From positions 919,501 to 983,500 of the forward strand of contig NZ_OLMF01000004.1 in assembly GCF_900290195.1 (NCBI RefSeq): 64,000 nt of DNA. Direction: 5' to 3'. Below the pieces are notes generated by a model, which was given only the letters and a program-made list of their open reading frames with translations, was not told where the DNA came from and made no database searches. Both the position numbers and the translations under genes were made by a program. This document shows, piece by piece, positions 220 to 45,900 of this stretch (within the stretch, counting starts at the first letter, position 1; the number at the start of each line of letters is the position of its first letter). This stretch comes from Anaerococcus marasmi. Its GTDB lineage: Bacteria; Bacillota; Clostridia; Tissierellales; Peptoniphilaceae.

Positions 220-2429
220 TAAATAATACCTCTATCGTAATTTAGATTGTTAGTTTCTTTTCTGTCTTGATAATCTCTTATATCTTCATCCGAAAATACC
301 TGAACTAGGAGGGATATATCAGTAGTAAAGTTTCTCCTATCTACCTTGGAAGCCTTGGATGGATAGATCCTACTTATGCCTTCTCTTCTTATTATCTTAA
401 GCCTATCTCCATTTTCATTTACCATTTCTCCATTTCTAAAGTTACAGGTCGGGCATCCCTTAAGCCCGCACTTTTTTATAGTAGAAAATGGACAGTGGAC
501 CATATTCATAAGCTCAATTCTTCCGAAGGCCAAGGCTTCTACATCAAAGTATCTGCCGTTTTGATTTATAGAATCAAATGTCGCTTCTACAGATGATGAA
601 GTCATCTCGGCAAACTTATCGTAAAAAGCATAGGTAAATTTATTGAAGACATTTAGGTATCTGCCTATCCTAATTTTTATATTATTTTCCCTGAATTTAT
701 CAACAAAGGCAAGGTCTCTATAGTTATTGAAAACTACCCCCTTGATAGATCTTTCCTTAATGAAGGCTATAAGCTCATCTATATCGTAGTCCGTGTGGGA
801 ATTAAGGATTAGATAAAGACTAAGGCCAGCATATTTCTCATCATATTCTTCTAGGTAAATATTATCGAAGTCTTTTAAAAGACTTGGACTTATATTAGTA
901 TTTTTAAGCTCCGCATTTACTTCTTTCTTGTGGTTTTTCTTTTTGCCAACTCCAGGGATTTCTATATCTATCTCATCTCTCCTAAAGGATTTGAGGATTT
1001 CCTCTTTAAGCTTAGCAGATCCTTCTCTTCTTAGTCTGTTGATGTCCTTTTTTCTAATGAAGACATCAGGGTCCATGACTATATTAATTTGCCTTGCCTT
1101 GTAGATATCGTCCCCAAACTTGCTTAAATTTTCCCTAAAGTCTTCTTCTGAAAGAGAAATCTTCTTAGCCCTTTCTAGATTGTCATCTATACTTAGGCTA
1201 ATTGACTTATCTTCATAGGTCATGGTAATCTCTGCAGGCTCTCCTACCTTGGCCCTAAAGTCAATTCTTATCGGAAGATTTTTATATTCTCCTAGAGCCT
1301 TTTCTAAGTTACTGCCTATCTTTTGAGAATTTAGAATATATACATCAGAGCCTTCCTTGGCGTCTGGATATTGGCCTAGATAAGTTTTAGAGTTTTTCTT
1401 TAGATTTTCGGTCAAGGTATAGGGTAATTTCTTGCCCTTATCTGTGATTATCTCTAGATTATCTCCTATAAGAAGGTCGGATGAATTAATAAAGTACTTT
1501 TTACTTCCTTCTTTGATGACTTTACCCACAGACCTATGCTTGGCATCAGATGAAAGTCTTACATAATCACTCTTTTGTCCAAAGATAAAACCCTTGGTGT
1601 AGCCTCTGTTTGATATATCTCTCAAATCATTTTTGTCGTAAGAATTTTTATCTATCTTATCCTTATAGCTTTTTACACTTGTATAGACATATTCTGGGCT
1701 TTTCATCCTACCTTCGATCTTGAAGCAATCTATGCCAAGGTCTACTAACTGGTCGATTTGATCTATGACATTTAAATCTCTCATATTTAGGAAATAATCA
1801 TCAGCCAAAGTTTTCCCATCTGCTATAAGGGAGTATTTTTGCCTACAAATACCAGCACATCTACCCCTGTTAGCGGAACGCGCTCCAAAATATGAGCTCA
1901 TCAAACATTCTCCAGAGTATGACACGCACAAGGACCCGTGGACGAAAACTTCCTTTTCTACAGGAAGGGTAGCAATCTTTCTAAGCTCTTCGATTGGGGT
2001 CTCTCTAGCAATAACTACCCTATCAAAACCCATATCCATGAGACTTTTGGCCCCGTAATAGTCTCTTACAGCCATTTGAGTTGAAGCATGAAGGTCCATG
2101 CCGGGCACTTGGTCTTTTAGGATTGTAAATAGTCCCAGATCTTGGATTATTAGGGCATCTGCTCCGTATTCGTAGAGCTTTTTGGCGTAATATATTGCCT
2201 TTTCTATCTCCTCATCCTTGATAAGAATATTCATAGTCACAAATACCTTCTTGCCAAATAGGTGGATGAGGTCAATAAAAGCTCCCACATTTTCTATATC
2301 AAAGTTTTTGGCATAGGCACGAGCTCCAAAGTCGTCCACTGCCATATAAAAGCTAGAAGCCCCAGCGGCAAGGCCTGCATAAAGCATCTCTTCATTGCCA
2401 ACTGGAGCTAGGATTTCAGATTTTGCCAT
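219..2429 (-). CDS. U32 family peptidase / RNA hydroxylation protein (TrhP/RlhA-like)
   Basis: A 736-residue protein of the U32 'peptidase' family. The N-terminal TIM-barrel part (about 1-290) contains SANRGRCAGICRQ and the family signature CFKIEGRMKSPEYV. A C-terminal DUF3656-like region follows. A late Cys cluster (HCPFSTIKKCGLKGCPTC) would supply iron-sulfur ligands. Known relatives, E. coli RlhA and B. subtilis TrhP, hydroxylate 23S rRNA or tRNA U34 using prephenate, so an RNA-modification role is more likely than proteolysis. A TTG lies one codon upstream, but the ATG at 2429 overlaps the zapA stop (TGATG) and is preferred. Which RNA it modifies cannot be read from sequence. Confidence 0.85.
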   Translation of the reverse strand: MAKSEILAPVGNEEMLYAGLAAGASSFYMAVDDFGARAYAKNFDIENVGAFIDLIHLFGKKVFVTMNILIKDEEIEKAIYYAKKLYEYGADALIIQDLGLFTILKDQVPGMDLHASTQMAVRDYYGAKSLMDMGFDRVVIARETPIEELRKIATLPVEKEVFVHGSLCVSYSGECLMSSYFGARSANRGRCAGICRQKYSLIADGKTLADDYFLNMRDLNVIDQIDQLVDLGIDCFKIEGRMKSPEYVYTSVKSYKDKIDKNSYDKNDLRDISNRGYTKGFIFGQKSDYVRLSSDAKHRSVGKVIKEGSKKYFINSSDLLIGDNLEIITDKGKKLPYTLTENLKKNSKTYLGQYPDAKEGSDVYILNSQKIGSNLEKALGEYKNLPIRIDFRAKVGEPAEITMTYEDKSISLSIDDNLERAKKISLSEEDFRENLSKFGDDIYKARQINIVMDPDVFIRKKDINRLRREGSAKLKEEILKSFRRDEIDIEIPGVGKKKNHKKEVNAELKNTNISPSLLKDFDNIYLEEYDEKYAGLSLYLILNSHTDYDIDELIAFIKERSIKGVVFNNYRDLAFVDKFRENNIKIRIGRYLNVFNKFTYAFYDKFAEMTSSSVEATFDSINQNGRYFDVEALAFGRIELMNMVHCPFSTIKKCGLKGCPTCNFRNGEMVNENGDRLKIIRREGISRIYPSKASKVDRRNFTTDISLLVQVFSDEDIRDYQDRKETNNLNYDRGII

Positions 2430-38835: not shown

Positions 38836-40461
38836 CTAAATATCTATAATAATTCTAAAAGTCGATCCCTTCCCTAGCTTACTTCTTACCTCTAGTCCAT
38901 ATCCTAGATAGTCAGCAATGTGCTTGGCTATGGATAGGCCAAGCCCGGTCGATTTGTTATCTCTTTTTCTTGACTTATCAGCCATGTAGAATCTTTCAAA
39001 TATCCTAGGCAAATCCTTTTGGCTGATTCCTACCCCATTATCCTTAATGAATATTATTAGTTTATTATCTAATATTATTGAAGAAATCTCAATTCTTCCG
39101 CCTTCTCCTGTATATTTTATGGCATTTTCATAAATGTTTGATAAAAGATCGGTAAATAAAGATATGGAAGTTTTTATTTTAAAAGATCCTACCGTATTTA
39201 CTATTTTGATATTTTTATCATCAGACCTTTTCTTGTAATTATCCACACAAAGCTCGGCTATTTCTTTTATGTCAAATTCTATTTCATCGATTCCCTGGCC
39301 ATTTTCGTCAAGACTTGAAAGCTTTAGGATATCATCTATTATCTGAAGGAGCCTATTTCCTTCCCTATATATAATCTCTGCGAAGTTTCTCACGTCACTT
39401 TCCCTGGCAATTCCAGTAGATATTAGCTCCGCATATCCATTAATAGAAGTTAGAGGACTTTTTAGCTCATGGCTTACATTGGCAGAAAATTCTCGTCTCA
39501 TAAGCTCAGCCTTTCTTGTCTCTGAGTTATCTATTATGATAATCACATAGCCCATATCGTAGCTATCAATGATTGGATCGACAAAGACCTTTAGGTGGAA
39601 GTTATTTACATCAAAGGCCATAGCCTTAGTTTTTTTAGTCTTTTGAATTTCCTTTATGGCTTTCTTGTAATCTTTATCATCAATAAGATCTATAAAGCTA
39701 GTATCAGAGCTTTTGTCTAGATAGTTCTGGGCGGCCTTATTCATTATCTCAATCCTGCCATTTTCATCGCAAACCACAAGGCCTTCTTCCATATTCTCTG
39801 TTATATCTATTATCTCCTTAAATCTCGAAGCTTGGGCCATTTCACTTGCCTTAAGTTTCTTCTTGCTTTCTACTAGGTTTTCAAAGTATGGACTTATTTC
39901 TTTATATCTTGGGTCAATCTCCTTAAAATCGTAATTATCATCGAATCGACTCAGACCTTCTATGTACTTATTTACAAAATTATCTGCTTCAAACTTTATA
40001 ATACCAATTATAAATAAGTAGGCTATAAGATAAATTGAGATGATTTTGCCATCAAAGATATCTAAGATTGTATTTTGAGATTTGATTATAAGATTATTCT
40101 CTCCTCCTATATAGTAGGCAGTGTTTATGGAATCCTTTATCCCATATTTAATTTCTCTGATTTTCCCATCATCTCGAATATTAATATCTTTTAGGCCTAT
40201 ATTATCCATCGAACTATAGAGAATATTCTTTTCGTCATCAAAATATATTAGCTTGTATTTTGGATAAGTTTTTTCAAAATCTTTTAATATATTTTTATTT
40301 CCATCATTTATCTCATAGAAAATAAAGCTCAAAGAATCCTCCATGAATTCATTTTGAGCTTTATTTTTTCCTCTAAAGACTATGCTTATATTTATTAAAA
40401 ATGTTACAAGCATTACAAGGCTAAATATCCTTATAAGTCTTTTTTCTAGTAAGTCTTTCAT
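38836..40461 (-). CDS. phoR: Phosphate-regulon sensor histidine kinase
   Basis: 541 residues. Two membrane helices (about 10-28 and 137-157) flank an extracytoplasmic region. A PAS domain (near VVCDENGRIEIMNKAAQNYL) precedes the HisKA domain with phospho-acceptor REFSANVSHELKSPLTSING and an ATPase with IFIKDNGVGI and STGLGLSIAKHI. It phosphorylates the response regulator; in Pho systems PstSCAB and PhoU feed the signal. The start overlaps phoP by four bases. Last gene of the pst-pho operon. Confidence 0.9.
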   Translation of the reverse strand: MKDLLEKRLIRIFSLVMLVTFLINISIVFRGKNKAQNEFMEDSLSFIFYEINDGNKNILKDFEKTYPKYKLIYFDDEKNILYSSMDNIGLKDINIRDDGKIREIKYGIKDSINTAYYIGGENNLIIKSQNTILDIFDGKIISIYLIAYLFIIGIIKFEADNFVNKYIEGLSRFDDNYDFKEIDPRYKEISPYFENLVESKKKLKASEMAQASRFKEIIDITENMEEGLVVCDENGRIEIMNKAAQNYLDKSSDTSFIDLIDDKDYKKAIKEIQKTKKTKAMAFDVNNFHLKVFVDPIIDSYDMGYVIIIIDNSETRKAELMRREFSANVSHELKSPLTSINGYAELISTGIARESDVRNFAEIIYREGNRLLQIIDDILKLSSLDENGQGIDEIEFDIKEIAELCVDNYKKRSDDKNIKIVNTVGSFKIKTSISLFTDLLSNIYENAIKYTGEGGRIEISSIILDNKLIIFIKDNGVGISQKDLPRIFERFYMADKSRKRDNKSTGLGLSIAKHIADYLGYGLEVRSKLGKGSTFRIIIDI

Positions 40462-41117
40462 ATTTCACCAAATTTATAGCCTAGATTTCTAACAGTTTCT
40501 ATATATTTCCCCGCATTTTTTAACTTAGCCCTAAGACTTGCTATATGAACATCTACAGTTCTAGTCTCTCCTTCGTAGTCGTATCCCCATACTTTAAGTA
40601 GGAAGTCATCACGAGTTATGACATTTCCTATATTAGACATAAAAAGAAGTAGCATCTCAAATTCCTTGTAGGTAAGGTCTATTTTTTCACCACCAACTTT
40701 TACCGAACGCTTTTTCATATTAATTCTTACTTCTTTATAGCTTATGTGATCTGTATCCTTCTTCTTGCTTCTCCTGAGTACTGCCTTGACTCTGCTGATT
40801 AATTCTAAGATTGAGAAGGGTTTTGTTATATAATCATCCGCCCCTAGGTCAAGGCCCATCACCTTATCAAACTCATCAGTCCTAGCTGTAAGCATTATTA
40901 TGGGCATATCAGAAAACTCTCTAATCTCCTTAAGTATAGTTATACCGTCCTTTTCTGGAAGCATTATATCAAGGATTAAAAGATCACCTGGCTTATTTCT
41001 TACATCACTTACTATTTTGGAACCATCTTCGTAGCCAGCTACCTCATATCCTTTTTCTCTTAAGGCATATTCTACTAAATTTCTTATAGACTTATCGTCT
41101 TCGACAACATATATCAT
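40458..41117 (-). CDS. phoP: Phosphate-regulon response regulator, OmpR/PhoB family
   Basis: 219 residues. Receiver domain with acidic pocket DD (8-9 region of YVVEDDKSIR), phospho-Asp in LLILDIMLPEKDG, Thr/Lys in MLTARTDEFDK and DDYITKPFSILEL. The C-terminal winged helix has RTVDVHIASLRAKL. It should bind the direct repeats upstream of pstS. Abuts phoU and overlaps phoR. Confidence 0.92.
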   Translation of the reverse strand: MIYVVEDDKSIRNLVEYALREKGYEVAGYEDGSKIVSDVRNKPGDLLILDIMLPEKDGITILKEIREFSDMPIIMLTARTDEFDKVMGLDLGADDYITKPFSILELISRVKAVLRRSKKKDTDHISYKEVRINMKKRSVKVGGEKIDLTYKEFEMLLLFMSNIGNVITRDDFLLKVWGYDYEGETRTVDVHIASLRAKLKNAGKYIETVRNLGYKFGEI

Positions 41118-41744
41118 CTAAAGCCTCGTTGCAAGATCAGCTACTCTCGCAAGCCTATCTCCTAACCTTTCAAAATACTTGTAGAGGAGGACTTTTTCTG
41201 ATAATTCCATAGGAGCAATATTATCTTTCTTGTTCTCGTTTGAAATGTATGAGATTGCCTCTTCAAATAACTTGTTGTTTACTTCATCTTGCTTTATTGT
41301 TTCCTTGGCAAGGTTCATATTATAGTTTACGAAAGAATTAATAGCATCTTTTGCCATCTTTGTCTCATTTTCTATGAACTTATTTAGAAAATCTTTTTCA
41401 CTTTCATTTAGTGAATAATCGCCTAATATAAAAGAAACTTGCTCGAAATGTCCTGCTATTCTCTTAAATGATGATGCCAGCTTCATTGACATTTGTAGTA
41501 GTCTTAAGTCTTTCGCAACTGGTTGTTGAAGGGCCATTAGCTCAAAGCTAAGCCTTTCTATATCACTTGCTTTTCTCCTAATATCATCGTGAAGATCGAT
41601 TATATCCTTAAGCTCATCTTCCTTGGAATTTTCTATAAATTGGCCAATTTTCTCATAAGAGATTATGACGTAATCCATAAGGTCTTTGGCCATTTTCTTG
41701 ATATTGTCTAAGTCTTCGTTGTATTTTATTCTCATATCAACCAA
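41118..41744 (-). CDS. phoU: Phosphate signalling protein PhoU
   Basis: 208 residues, two three-helix bundles. Recognisable are [19 protein letters not shown] and [20 protein letters not shown] (an E/D-xxxD metal-binding region), and the repeat ending [18 protein letters not shown]. It links Pst transport state to the kinase and limits phosphate uptake. Overlaps pstB by eight bases. Confidence 0.92.
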
Positions 41745-42519
41745 ACCTTCCAGTTATATAATCTTCTGTTCTCTTATCTTTTGGATTTTCGAATATATCT
41801 ATGGTATTTGCCATCTCTATTACCTCTCCTGTTAGAAAGAAGGCAGTTTGATCTGAAATTCTAGCTGCTTGTTGCATATTATGAGTTACAATTACTATAG
41901 TATATTCGTTCTTTAGTCCGTCAAGTAGGTCTTCTATGGCTGATGTCGAAATTGGGTCAAGGGCACTTGTTGGCTCATCCATCAAGATAATATTAGGATT
42001 TACAGAAAGGGTTCTCGCTATACAGATTCTTTGCTGCTGACCTCCAGAAAATGATAGAGCGTTTTGGTCAAGCTTATCTTTTACCTCATCCCAAATCGCA
42101 GCTGACTTTAGAGATTTCTCAACAATCTCATCTAGTCTGTCCTTATCCTTAATTCCAGAAATCTTAGGGCCATAGGTTATATTGTCATATACAGACTTTG
42201 AAAAAGGGTTAGGTGATTGGAAAACCATTCCGACCCTTCTTCTTAATTCTACTACATCTACATCCTTCTTGTAAATATCATCTCCATCAATTGTGATGAG
42301 TCCTTCAATTTTACAATCATCTACTAGGTCATTCATCCTATTAAAACATCTTAGCATAGTAGACTTACCACAACCAGAAGGACCTATGAAGGCAGTAATC
42401 TTCCCCTTCTTGATATCCATATTTACTTTCTTTAAGGCCTTGAAGTCTCCATAGTATAAGTCAACGTCCTTGACTCCTATGGCAGTATTATTACCATTTA
42501 TTATTTCTTTATTTTCCAT
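41737..42519 (-). CDS. pstB: Phosphate ABC transporter ATP-binding protein
   Basis: 260 residues. Walker [20 protein letters not shown], signature [17 protein letters not shown], Walker [14 protein letters not shown], switch His in [13 protein letters not shown]. The FNRMND stretch is diagnostic of PstB. It powers phosphate import from the cytoplasmic face. Confidence 0.97.
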
Positions 42520-42538: not shown

Positions 42539-43351
42539 CTATCCTACAAGTTTCTTGCTGATTTTTGCTGATACGAAGTTTATAGCTATGACGAATACCA
42601 AAAGAAGGACTGCTGTTGCATAAGCTTCATTTACGTGGAAACCTTCTGATGATAGAACGTACATGTGCACTGCCATTGTCCTTGCTGAATTAAAGATTCC
42701 TTTTGGAATTGAAGGTTGAGTACCCATGGTATATATTAGTGCAGCTGATTCTCCAACGATTCTTCCTGTTGATAGGAATATTCCGCCCAAGATTCCATCC
42801 ATGGCATCTGGTAATACTACCTTAAAGATTGTCTGTATCTTTGTAGCTCCTAGGGCAAGGGAGGCGTGGGCTTGGAGTGGGTTTACGGTAAGGATCGCTT
42901 CTTCTGTTGTTCTAATTATAGTAGGGAGGACCATTATTGAAACCGTGAAGCAACCTGCAATAAGGGAGTAACCCATACCAAGACCCAGGCCTGTGCTTGT
43001 AACAAAAAACAAGTATCCAAACAAACCATAAACAATGGAAGGGATAGATGAAAGAATTTCCGTTGAAAATCTTACTAGCTTGATAAAGACTTTGTTCTTC
43101 GCATATTGTGAAAGATAAATCGCTGTGAAAATCCCAATAGGCAGAGATATCAACAAGCTTAAAATTATAGTAAATAAGGTCGCTATCAAGGCTGGCATTA
43201 TCGAAACATTTTCTGTAGTATAATTCATTTCGAAAAGTCCAGGAGATATATTAGGTATACCCTTAAAGAGAATATAGGCAATGATTATCCCACTCATAGC
43301 GAAGGCTATGAAGGTAAAGACCATTATTAAAGTTTTGTAAGTTTTGCTCAT
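42539..43351 (-). CDS. pstA: Phosphate ABC transporter permease PstA
   Basis: 270 residues, six membrane helices; EAA-type loop in HASLALGATKIQTIFKVVLP and the family region GESAALIYTMG. Pairs with PstC to form the channel. 10 bp after pstC. Confidence 0.95.
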   Translation of the reverse strand: MSKTYKTLIMVFTFIAFAMSGIIIAYILFKGIPNISPGLFEMNYTTENVSIMPALIATLFTIILSLLISLPIGIFTAIYLSQYAKNKVFIKLVRFSTEILSSIPSIVYGLFGYLFFVTSTGLGLGMGYSLIAGCFTVSIMVLPTIIRTTEEAILTVNPLQAHASLALGATKIQTIFKVVLPDAMDGILGGIFLSTGRIVGESAALIYTMGTQPSIPKGIFNSARTMAVHMYVLSSEGFHVNEAYATAVLLLVFVIAINFVSAKISKKLVG

Positions 43352-43360
43352 AAATCACTC

Positions 43361-44224
43361 CTATAATTTCTTTTCATTTCTATCTCTTATGATATTAAAG
43401 ACAATATTTATAAAAAGTATGAAGAAGAAAAGCACCATACCCGTTGCAATCAAGGCTTGTCTATGCATACCTGAGGCATAACCCATCTCCAAGACTATAT
43501 TTGTTGTAAGAGTTCTCGAACCTTTAAGGATTTCTGTAGTTAGACGTGGTTGGTTGCCGACAACAAGATAAACTGCCATAGTCTCTCCGATTGCCCTACC
43601 TATTGCAAGGATTATCGAAGAGAAAATCCCGCTTTTGGCATAGGGAATCATGACCTTTCTTATAGTCTCTTCCTTGGTAGCTCCAAGGGCAAGGGAACCT
43701 TGATAGAAGGTCATTGGTACTTGCTTAAGAGAGTTTTCAGAAATATTTACCATGGTAGGTAATATCATTATAGCAAGTAAGATAGATGCTGTAAGCATTG
43801 TCATACCACTTCTAATATCAAAGATAGACTTAACAAGTGGAACCAATACCATCATAGCAAAGAAACCATATACTACTGAAGGTATTGCTGCCATTAGATT
43901 GATTAAAGATTTGAGTGGAGAATAGCTCTTTTTTGCATAATAGGCCATAAATACTGAAGTAGCAAGGCCAAATGGTAGAGCTATGATTGTGGATAATACA
44001 GTTACGATAATAGATCCTACTATCATTGGGAAGATACCAAAGTGAGGGTTTCCCGCTGTTGGCTTCCATACTTTTCCCGTTATAAACGGAACAAGTCCGT
44101 ATTCATTAACAAACTTAATCCCTTCATTGAAGATGAAAAAGATTATAAGAAGGATAAGGAATACGGACATTGCTGCTGATAATAGGAAAATTATCTCTCC
44201 GATTCTTTCCCTAGTTTTATTCAT
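43361..44224 (-). CDS. pstC: Phosphate ABC transporter permease PstC
   Basis: 287 residues, six membrane helices; the EAA-type loop is in QGSLALGATKEETIRKVMIP, and AIGRAIGETMAVYLVVGN is conserved in PstC. Starts 1 bp after the pstS stop (TAATATG). Confidence 0.95.
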   Translation of the reverse strand: MNKTRERIGEIIFLLSAAMSVFLILLIIFFIFNEGIKFVNEYGLVPFITGKVWKPTAGNPHFGIFPMIVGSIIVTVLSTIIALPFGLATSVFMAYYAKKSYSPLKSLINLMAAIPSVVYGFFAMMVLVPLVKSIFDIRSGMTMLTASILLAIMILPTMVNISENSLKQVPMTFYQGSLALGATKEETIRKVMIPYAKSGIFSSIILAIGRAIGETMAVYLVVGNQPRLTTEILKGSRTLTTNIVLEMGYASGMHRQALIATGMVLFFFILFINIVFNIIRDRNEKKL

Positions 44225-44225
44225 A

Positions 44226-45209
44226 TTACTTCTCTAATTCACTAGTATTTGTAATTGTTCCGTTAAAGATTTCTTTTAACTGGTCTACTGTTACATCTTC
44301 TAGCTTGCTATCTTTATTTACAACTACTGCGATTCCGTCGGTTGCGATAACAGATACTTGAAGTTTTTCCTTTTCTTCATCCTTAAGCTCACGAGAAGCC
44401 ATAGCGATTTGAGCTGCTCCATCGATACAAGCTTCGATTCCTGAAGATGATCCTGTAGATTGGATTTCGATTTTAGCATCTGGGTTAAGCTTTTGGTATG
44501 CTTCTACCATTTTTTCCATAAGTGGAGTAACTGATGTAGAACCTGCTACAGTTATTGTTCCCTTTGCACCGCTTGCTTCGTAAGCTTCAGTTTCTTTTAA
44601 TGGAACGTAGCCTTCTTCAAGAACAAGCTTTTGAGCTTCTTCTGATTTAACATATTTTAGGAAGTCCTTTGATAGATCATCTAGCTCACTTTCTTTATAA
44701 GCTAGGTTGAATGGGCGAGCAATCTTGTAAGATCCATCTGCTATTGTCTCTTCTGTTGCCTCAACTCCGTCAACCTTAAGGGCTTTTACAGTATCATTTA
44801 GGGAACCAAGTGAAATATATCCGATTGCGTTAGCATCTTGGCTTACTGTTTGCATAACACCATTTGTAGAGTTTTGAACTACGGCATCTTGGGTTGTCAT
44901 ATCTTCCTTGGCACCGTCAACTTCTTCTTCAAGTCCTACGATTTCGATGAAGGCTCCACGAGTACCCGAACCGTCTTCTCTAGAAACTACAGTAAAGTCA
45001 TAGTCTTCTGCACTTGCTGTGTCAGTCTCTTCTTCTTTCTCTTCAGGTGCTTTAGCTGCATCATCAGTTTTTGCTGCGTCATCAGTATTAGCTGCATCTT
45101 CTGTCTTAGTTTCTGTAGAAGTGTCAGCTCCTTTATCATTTGAACAACCAGCAAAGATTAAGCCGAATGATAGGGCAGCTGCTAGAATTTTTGCATTTTT
45201 AATTTTCAT
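44226..45209 (-). CDS. pstS: Phosphate-binding lipoprotein PstS, circularly permuted
   Basis: 327 residues. A lipoprotein signal with Cys22 (LIFAGC) is followed by a 45-residue Asp/Ala/Thr/Glu-rich linker. The order of the binding fold is then reversed from the textbook PstS. Residues 71-205 hold what is normally the C-terminal half (TVVSREDGSGTRGAF at 73-87, IGYISLGSL at 129-137, KDFLKYVKSEEAQ). Residues 216-327 hold the usual N-terminal half (GTITVAGSTSVTPLMEK, TGSSSGIEACIDG, MASRELKDEE), ending at the natural hinge DQLKEIFNGTIT. Phosphate-contact loops from both halves are present, so the protein should fold and bind phosphate. It captures phosphate outside the membrane for PstCAB. Confidence 0.93.
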   Translation of the reverse strand: MKIKNAKILAAALSFGLIFAGCSNDKGADTSTETKTEDAANTDDAAKTDDAAKAPEEKEEETDTASAEDYDFTVVSREDGSGTRGAFIEIVGLEEEVDGAKEDMTTQDAVVQNSTNGVMQTVSQDANAIGYISLGSLNDTVKALKVDGVEATEETIADGSYKIARPFNLAYKESELDDLSKDFLKYVKSEEAQKLVLEEGYVPLKETEAYEASGAKGTITVAGSTSVTPLMEKMVEAYQKLNPDAKIEIQSTGSSSGIEACIDGAAQIAMASRELKDEEKEKLQVSVIATDGIAVVVNKDSKLEDVTVDQLKEIFNGTITNTSELEK

Positions 45210-45319: not shown

Positions 45320-45900
45320 ATCGAATAGGGGCTAAGTACTAGCCCCTTTCACACCACCCGTACGTGCCGTTCGGCATACGGCGGTTCAATATTTTATTGT
45401 ATCATATTATTTATTACTGATGTTTCTATTTAACTTTATTCTTTTTGTATCCGAACCTTGAGAAATGAATACGTCATTCCTTGTGTTCCATCAAGTCATA
45501 GTACATCCTTTTCAAATATTACAATAAATATCGTTCCTCCCTTCGCTCCATTTCCATTACAGAAACTTCTTCACTACTATGGAGTCTGCTGACTTCTCAT
45601 AGTTCGTTGTTACTACTGAGTCGTCTATGAGACCTCACGGGATAAGCCCTAATACTTTCATCGTTTACTTGCAGAATTTACGCTTTGGGTTTACGGTTAC
45701 CTTTTGGGTCTTTACTATCTTTGGCTAGCTTGCCCACCTGTTACGCCTTATATTCTGTTCCTGTTCGTCAAGCCACGATTTCGCTACCCGTTCTTCTCTC
45801 CTAGATGTCGCCACCTAAAACTTCGGGGTCGCTATTAGATTCGTCGGCAACTACGCTCTGTAGGGAATTTCACCCCAGCATTAGAACATGCCCGTCATAC
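45320..45900 (-). ncRNA. ORF-less group II intron (probable class C)
   Basis: A 581-bp non-coding stretch on the minus strand. It begins GTATGACGGGCATG at 45900, one base after the T run of the kdgK terminator. It ends with a domain V-like hairpin (GAACCGCCGTATGCCG, then GGCACGTACGGGTGG, near 45346-45378) and a domain VI-like hairpin, closing CTATTCGAT near 45320. The domain V arm carries CGC, as in class C introns, which insert behind terminators. No reverse transcriptase is present and domain IV is short. End points are my reading of the sequence, not a covariance-model fit. Confidence 0.75.

Follow-up and report, generated by a model that had tools for sequence, protein, structure and literature searches.

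Natural circular permutation has been described for a solute-binding lipoprotein of the ATP-binding cassette (ABC) importers, namely TpMglB-2 (Tp0684), a permuted glucose-binding protein of the so-called 'Type Ic', and proteins related to it occur in Gram-positive bacteria (PMC4990184). Among phosphate importers, the genes SP_2084-8 of Streptococcus pneumoniae constitute the Pst1 operon, which is activated by PnpRS (PMC6722419), and pneumococcal Pst1 was found to be necessary for optimal uptake when phosphate is low following a limitation (PMC4913102). The canonical phosphate-binding protein PstS (TIGR02136; structures 4GD5, 4Q8R and 1TWY) is a close term of comparison for the pstS gene considered here, which lies in a 64,000-nucleotide stretch of Anaerococcus marasmi DNA (contig NZ_OLMF01000004.1, positions 919,501 to 983,500; hereafter the window). 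The window PstS has the same halves, phosphate loops and place in the pst operon as the canonical proteins, but its halves are reversed, the loop with the invariant GG is replaced by new chain ends and the old ends are linked. It is very probably a circularly permuted form of PstS that serves a phosphate ABC importer as its working binding protein, and no other PstS was found in the genome.

The pstS open reading frame (ORF) extends from ATG to TAA, encodes 327 aa plus the stop, and is organized as follows:

44226..45209, minus strand: pstS, circularly permuted phosphate-binding lipoprotein (ORF, Pfam/NCBIfam profiles, PDB sequence matches)
45144..45209, minus strand: lipoprotein signal peptide, residues 1-22, with the lipobox FAGC and Cys22 (translation; lipobox by eye)
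44997..45143, minus strand: acidic, low-complexity spacer, residues 23-71 (translation)
44595..44996, minus strand: C-terminal half of canonical PstS (residues 72-205), bearing the SREDGSGTR phosphate loop (profile and PDB alignments)
44565..44594, minus strand: linker of residues 206-215 between the former C- and N-termini (gap between the half profiles)
44229..44564, minus strand: N-terminal half of canonical PstS (residues 216-327), bearing the GSTSV and GSSSG phosphate loops (profile and PDB alignments)

An earlier note, made from the sequence, had claimed that PstS carries its halves in reversed order, and this order was confirmed by the motifs, by PF12849, by TIGR02136 and by the relatives. 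The motifs VVSREDGSGTRGAF and IGYISLGSL lie within residues 72-205, and TITVAGSTSVTPL, GSSSGI and ASRELKDEE within residues 216-327, the positions first given being correct within one residue. The Pfam profile PBP_like_2 (PF12849) matched the window PstS in two stretches (122.7 bits versus a cut-off of 27), which, in the genome scan, covered positions 4-122 and 129-267 of the 267-position profile and stood in reversed order. TIGR02136 also matched in two stretches (199.2 bits; cut-off 206.6), and at 1e-5 this profile was matched by 22/22 permuted and 16/16 canonical cores. When a home-made profile from 41 canonical PstS was run on native and rotated sequences, the window protein was hit twice in its native order, at 143.7 and 133.3 bits, and once after rotation, at 277.4 bits; across 153 permuted ORFs, rotation raised the best-domain score by a median of 135 bits (range 1.8 to 147). 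In both PF12849 and the rotated-profile scores, the two segments complement each other without overlap and make up one domain with its halves reversed, rather than being independent paralogous domains, and the reading of the window PstS as a circular permutation of normal PstS is strongly supported.

The breakpoints are shared as well. The C half starts at model position 1-2 in 151/153 permuted ORFs, while the remaining two are truncated second copies; the chain ends 0-3 residues after the N half in 146/153, and the gap between the halves measures 12-16 residues in 143/153, reaching 71-80 in the loci L065-L067. The new ends had been placed at the inter-domain hinge, which proved imprecise. The hinge strand is presumably formed by core residues 213-227, considering the type II topology, and the chain continues past these residues and through one more helix (237-244) before ending at the W-x-x-[VLI]-G-G loop of normal PstS, so that the N-terminal half stops where a normal PstS goes on with GG-x-[DN].

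A PDB sequence search, in which 31 distinct sequences matched at E up to 1, returned 4h1x as the best match, colinear over window residues 72-323 (E 1.4e-66), whereas the three further alignments given in full (4q8r, 4gd5 and 1twy) each fell into two separate stretches. The structural comparison followed the same pattern, with a colinear match to 4h1x over 254 residues and a sequential alignment to canonical 1twy and 4gd5 that covered half, whereas a canonical control aligned whole; judged by these sequential alignments, the window PstS with swapped halves is predicted to fold like normal PstS. In the fold search with the canonical model, 4h1x was not among the matches listed (50 entries). In the fold listing, 4h1x is SP_2084 of S. 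pneumoniae TIGR4, and its 'pstS 2' corresponds to the PstS of Pst1, since SP_2084-8 is the Pst1 operon; the name pstS2 is given to SP_1400 in PMC11075461. Neither the molecule name nor the title of entry 4H1X, which comes from another organism, mentions a permutation, and a literature search of partial coverage, and thus weak as evidence of absence, yielded no description of a permuted PstS and no remark on the order in 4H1X. Additionally, the pneumococcus has a second, canonically aligning PstS (4exl/4lat), whereas none was found in the window genome.

Other binding proteins are more distant. Both the sequence and the close structural match of the window protein are those of PstS, whose fold we take to be type II, and not of the 'Type Ic' group. 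By contrast, TpMglB-2 has a Type I (cluster B) sugar-binding fold, another breakpoint and an added fourth hinge crossover, and its permuted part is poorly conserved (PMC4990184), whereas both halves of the window PstS are well conserved. The OpuAC-type glycine-betaine-binding proteins (13% identity, 3.9 A) are not PstS; for Lactococcus OpuAC, a term search of the published account found a permutation nowhere mentioned, and the ProX fold is called similar there (PMC2861598).

The phosphate loops of the window PstS are all present, as GSTS, GSS.G, SR and RE.GSGTR. In column counts over 113 distinct permuted rows, the R, S, G and T of RE.GSGT were each found in 113/113, G-S-x-S in 113/113 (x being T in 84 and S in 29), the Ser of GSS.G in 113/113 and the Arg of SR in 106/113. 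In the set of 22 cores, which was picked by motif with the GSSS forms left out, the invariance of the loops is partly due to selection and is no test. These residues are presumably the phosphate contacts, by analogy with E. coli PstS. Downstream of pstS, whose stop codon is separated by one base from the pstC ATG (44224), the following genes were found:

43361..44224, minus strand: pstC permease (TIGR02138, 279.5 bits versus a cut-off of 196.45)
42539..43351, minus strand: pstA permease (TIGR00974, 239.8 bits versus a cut-off of 193.45)
41737..42519, minus strand: ORF taken to be the pstB ATPase, from sequence and operon place
41118..41744, minus strand: ORF taken to be the phoU regulator, from sequence and operon place
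40458..41117, minus strand: ORF taken to be a PhoB/PnpR-like response regulator, from sequence

Thus, pstC and pstA score over their cut-offs and are followed by the presumed pstB and phoU, as in the operons of the PstS family. Among the relatives, pstC adjoins 120/148 permuted ORFs with room to see the neighbour, a set that was not de-duplicated. Considering the conserved loops, the single locus, the operon place, the own PstC lineage and the pneumococcal relative, the window PstS would be expected to perform ordinary phosphate capture, and its homology to the pneumococcal Pst1 protein argues for binding of inorganic phosphate and for Pst uptake.

A rearranged gene can in principle be a dead copy, and in Desemzia (G600) one permuted PstS does stand beside one canonical copy. 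However, no second PBP_like_2 locus was detected at 1e-3 in the 2.13-Mb, 99.7% complete window genome, which disposes of the second intact pstS that could have made this one a relic, and at 1e-5 nothing canonical was matched in 9/10 permuted genomes searched individually. Across many genera the frames are open, the operon place is kept and the residues are conserved, and a mis-assembly is excluded because the permuted order recurs in many independent genomes. It is therefore extremely improbable that the window PstS is a relic or an assembly artefact while another PstS does the work.

The suspicion that the arrangement is lineage-wide was borne out, and it reaches beyond clostridia. A close relative (L003) has the same half order, with 98% identity in the best segment, and the permuted order was found in 23/23 Anaerococcus genomes of the sample, the window genome included. 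With the window protein as query, the named genomes yielded 75 loci, 65 of them permuted, 8 canonical and 2 cut by a contig end; all PstS-type ORFs together (n=205, not de-duplicated and mostly drawn by permuted queries) comprised 153 permuted, 43 canonical, 7 tandem and 2 cut. Permuted PstS occur in Anaerococcus, Peptoniphilus, Aedoeadaptatus, Neofamilia, Globicatella, Facklamia and Desemzia, as well as in Gemmiger, Faecalimonas and [Ruminococcus] torques. Permuted PstS were carried by at least 14/398 genomes of the phylum sample (counted by eye), by at least 116/199 of the order sample, including at least 67/80 in the family, and by at least 71/295 in the order of Globicatella, where seven of the 71 matched in two pieces, in permuted order. 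As for the remaining 13 family genomes, four had no match at 1e-5 and nine had two weak matches in which the order was not seen. Junction-spanning fragments (G704 and G539) were excluded from the genome counts, and in three counted genomes (G575, G711 and G778) the match contains a stop. At the stricter E-value of 1e-30, at least 2/201 genomes were permuted in the phylum of the Anaerolineaceae metagenome-assembled genome (MAG) described next.

Two permuted PstS (L027 and L030) come from MAGs labelled Anaerolineaceae/Chloroflexi and another (L227) from a further Chloroflexota sample genome; L027 nests among Bacillota sequences in the tree, which may reflect either transfer or mis-binning. Variants were also observed. 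Several Anaerococcus of the hydrogenalis/vaginalis group and kin (L012-L017, L022, L135 and L146) have two permuted pstS placed one after the other ahead of pstC; six of the second copies have GSSS for GSTS and lack the SR motif, and in L017/L146 the start of the second copy is cut short. In the Aerococcaceae loci L026, L029, L049 and L065-L067, no pstC lies next to the permuted PstS, and the signal peptide lacks the lipobox Cys, L065 excepted (start unsure); pstS follows phoU (named by eye) in L026, L049 and L067, where upstream genes were listed. The linkers of L065-L067 (71-80 residues) are acidic, as are the tails of L046/L047/L064.

The relationships among these proteins were assessed in a tree built on rotated halves. 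Thinning by identity had reduced 164 rows to 43 permuted, 37 canonical and 10 tandem-half ones, two long-branch permuted rows being omitted. The 43 permuted rows formed one clade with support 100/98, present in 100% of 200 bootstrap trees, which were not fully settled. With the two long-branch rows restored, two changes were needed, and one clade was not rejected by the approximately unbiased (AU) test (p-AU 0.50). Permuted PstS appear to share one origin, with common breakpoints, L143 and L093 being less certain members. A second origin via L143, which falls among canonical proteins in the free tree, was considered and rejected: outside its own genome it is matched best by a protein of the same genus (41%), the place of that match is permuted, and one clade is compatible with the AU test (p 0.50). 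L143 is presumably a fast-evolving member of the permuted clade, and the permutation seems to have been a single event. In a PstC tree of 59 rows, taken from 144 and obtained by a short search, 34/34 PstC adjoining a permuted PstS fell on one side of a branch (Shimodaira-Hasegawa-like approximate likelihood ratio test, 100); since their PstC form one side of a branch, PstS and PstC of the permuted type appear to have been inherited together. The spread of permuted PstS across phyla suggests horizontal transfer between lineages, and the protein would have spread with its own PstC lineage, partly by this means.

Regarding the route, the single permutation would most likely have begun with a tandem duplication and fusion, after which the outer halves were lost, much as the earlier note had proposed. 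Permutation by duplication predicts functional tandem intermediates (PMC3320104). In fact, tandem N-C-N-C PstS of 527-559 aa, all with pstC next, were found in five genomes of three families (L137-L141); they hold a mid-chain C-then-N junction, with a gap of 6-16 residues in these five. Such a junction also occurs in L229, a 600-aa tandem of the Chloroflexota sample that lies outside the tree. Genome G992 of the same sample has a 669-aa frame. However, the tandem PstS keep both outer halves, and those in the tree occupy three places, none of them on the stem of the permuted clade, and arose separately from that clade; the known tandem proteins were thus rejected as direct ancestors. The acidic C-terminal tails of L046/L047/L064 and the long linkers of L065-L067 were likewise rejected as duplication fossils, being low-complexity acidic sequence. 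The tandem PstS accordingly show that duplication is an available route, and for the permuted lineage, on whose stem none of them stands, it is likely rather than demonstrated. Separately, the tandem chains of L137-L141 and L229 could hold two phosphate sites each.

The accepted alternative for circular permutation is fission and fusion (PMC3320104), in which PstS would have been split into two genes or chains that were later joined again with their order exchanged. The nearest canonical protein, L182, lends this some colour, since its N half and C half disagree on its place: both the joint tree (97/92) and the tree of the C half make it sister of the permuted clade, which the tree of the N half does not. 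However, in the tree of either half a branch separates the permuted rows from the rest (support 97 for N; 84 for C, not decisive), as expected for one parent, and no free-standing half occurred among the 205 PstS-type ORFs except two contig-end cuts (L068 and L076), although no search was aimed at split genes. Considering also that the tandem fusions predicted by duplication do occur, fission and fusion is quite unlikely, and duplication with loss of the outer halves is preferred.

In the permuted protein, the chain begins with the strand-loop-helix bearing the SRE..GSGTR phosphate loop, continues to the old C-terminus, passes through a short linker to the old N-terminus (a strand-loop-helix with GSTSV) and ends in the loop after the first helix of the next lobe. 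With the phosphate loops and, as predicted, the two-lobed fold retained, phosphate binding and delivery to PstC/PstA would be expected to proceed as usual, with docking presumably unchanged. The lipid anchor is shifted to the other ligand-loop strand, which we take to be that of lobe II in the type II binding-protein topology. For TpMglB-2, permutation was proposed as an adaptation to surface tethering by which the lipid anchor comes to lie farther from the ligand site, the permuted type occurring chiefly among tethered proteins of treponemes and Gram-positives (PMC4990184). Applied to PstS, this idea fits poorly, because the old and the new N-terminus both run into a phosphate loop (GSTS and SRE..GSGTR, respectively), so that strain is not obviously relieved, and because several permuted PstS of Aerococcaceae and Lachnospiraceae lack a lipobox (loose pattern, checked by eye); an adaptation to tethering is accordingly considered unlikely.

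A mobile element was also observed near the gene. A group II intron without ORF, of 581 bp, lies 110 bp upstream of the pstS start (window 45320-45900, minus strand; Rfam RF02001 and RF01998), and the close relative L003 has an empty site (two abutting blastn matches). The window genome holds a second full-length copy with 97% identity (G000:C1:97063-97643), another ORF-less copy (L226, G000:C2:173400-176000) broken by a 1.6-kb insert, and five reverse-transcriptase loci that could act on the intron in trans. The insert carries an ORF (798-2021, minus strand) for a 407-aa protein, presumably an IS110-type transposase (named by eye).

Permuted PstS is a lineage-wide variant common to many Gram-positive bacteria, with one solved structure. 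Its split matches push it under a curated cut-off (199 versus 206.6 for TIGR02136 here), and it would be misaligned in any tree for which the halves are not rotated. It is conceivable, though doubtful, that permuted PstS and its own PstC clade constitute a distinct type of phosphate importer, in which selection favoured the permutation itself and the operon moved as one unit; if so, the anchor on the other lobe and the joined old ends would change the opening, docking or regulation of the binding protein, and an importer operon would have spread across Firmicutes and into Chloroflexota. Natural permutation of ABC solute-binding proteins was already known from TpMglB-2, and here it affects a core nutrient receptor through an apparently single event. 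With well-conserved halves, a solved structure, the genetically studied pneumococcal Pst1, a canonical relative and independent tandem fusions, PstS therefore offers a good natural system in which to study the origin and the consequences of permutations.
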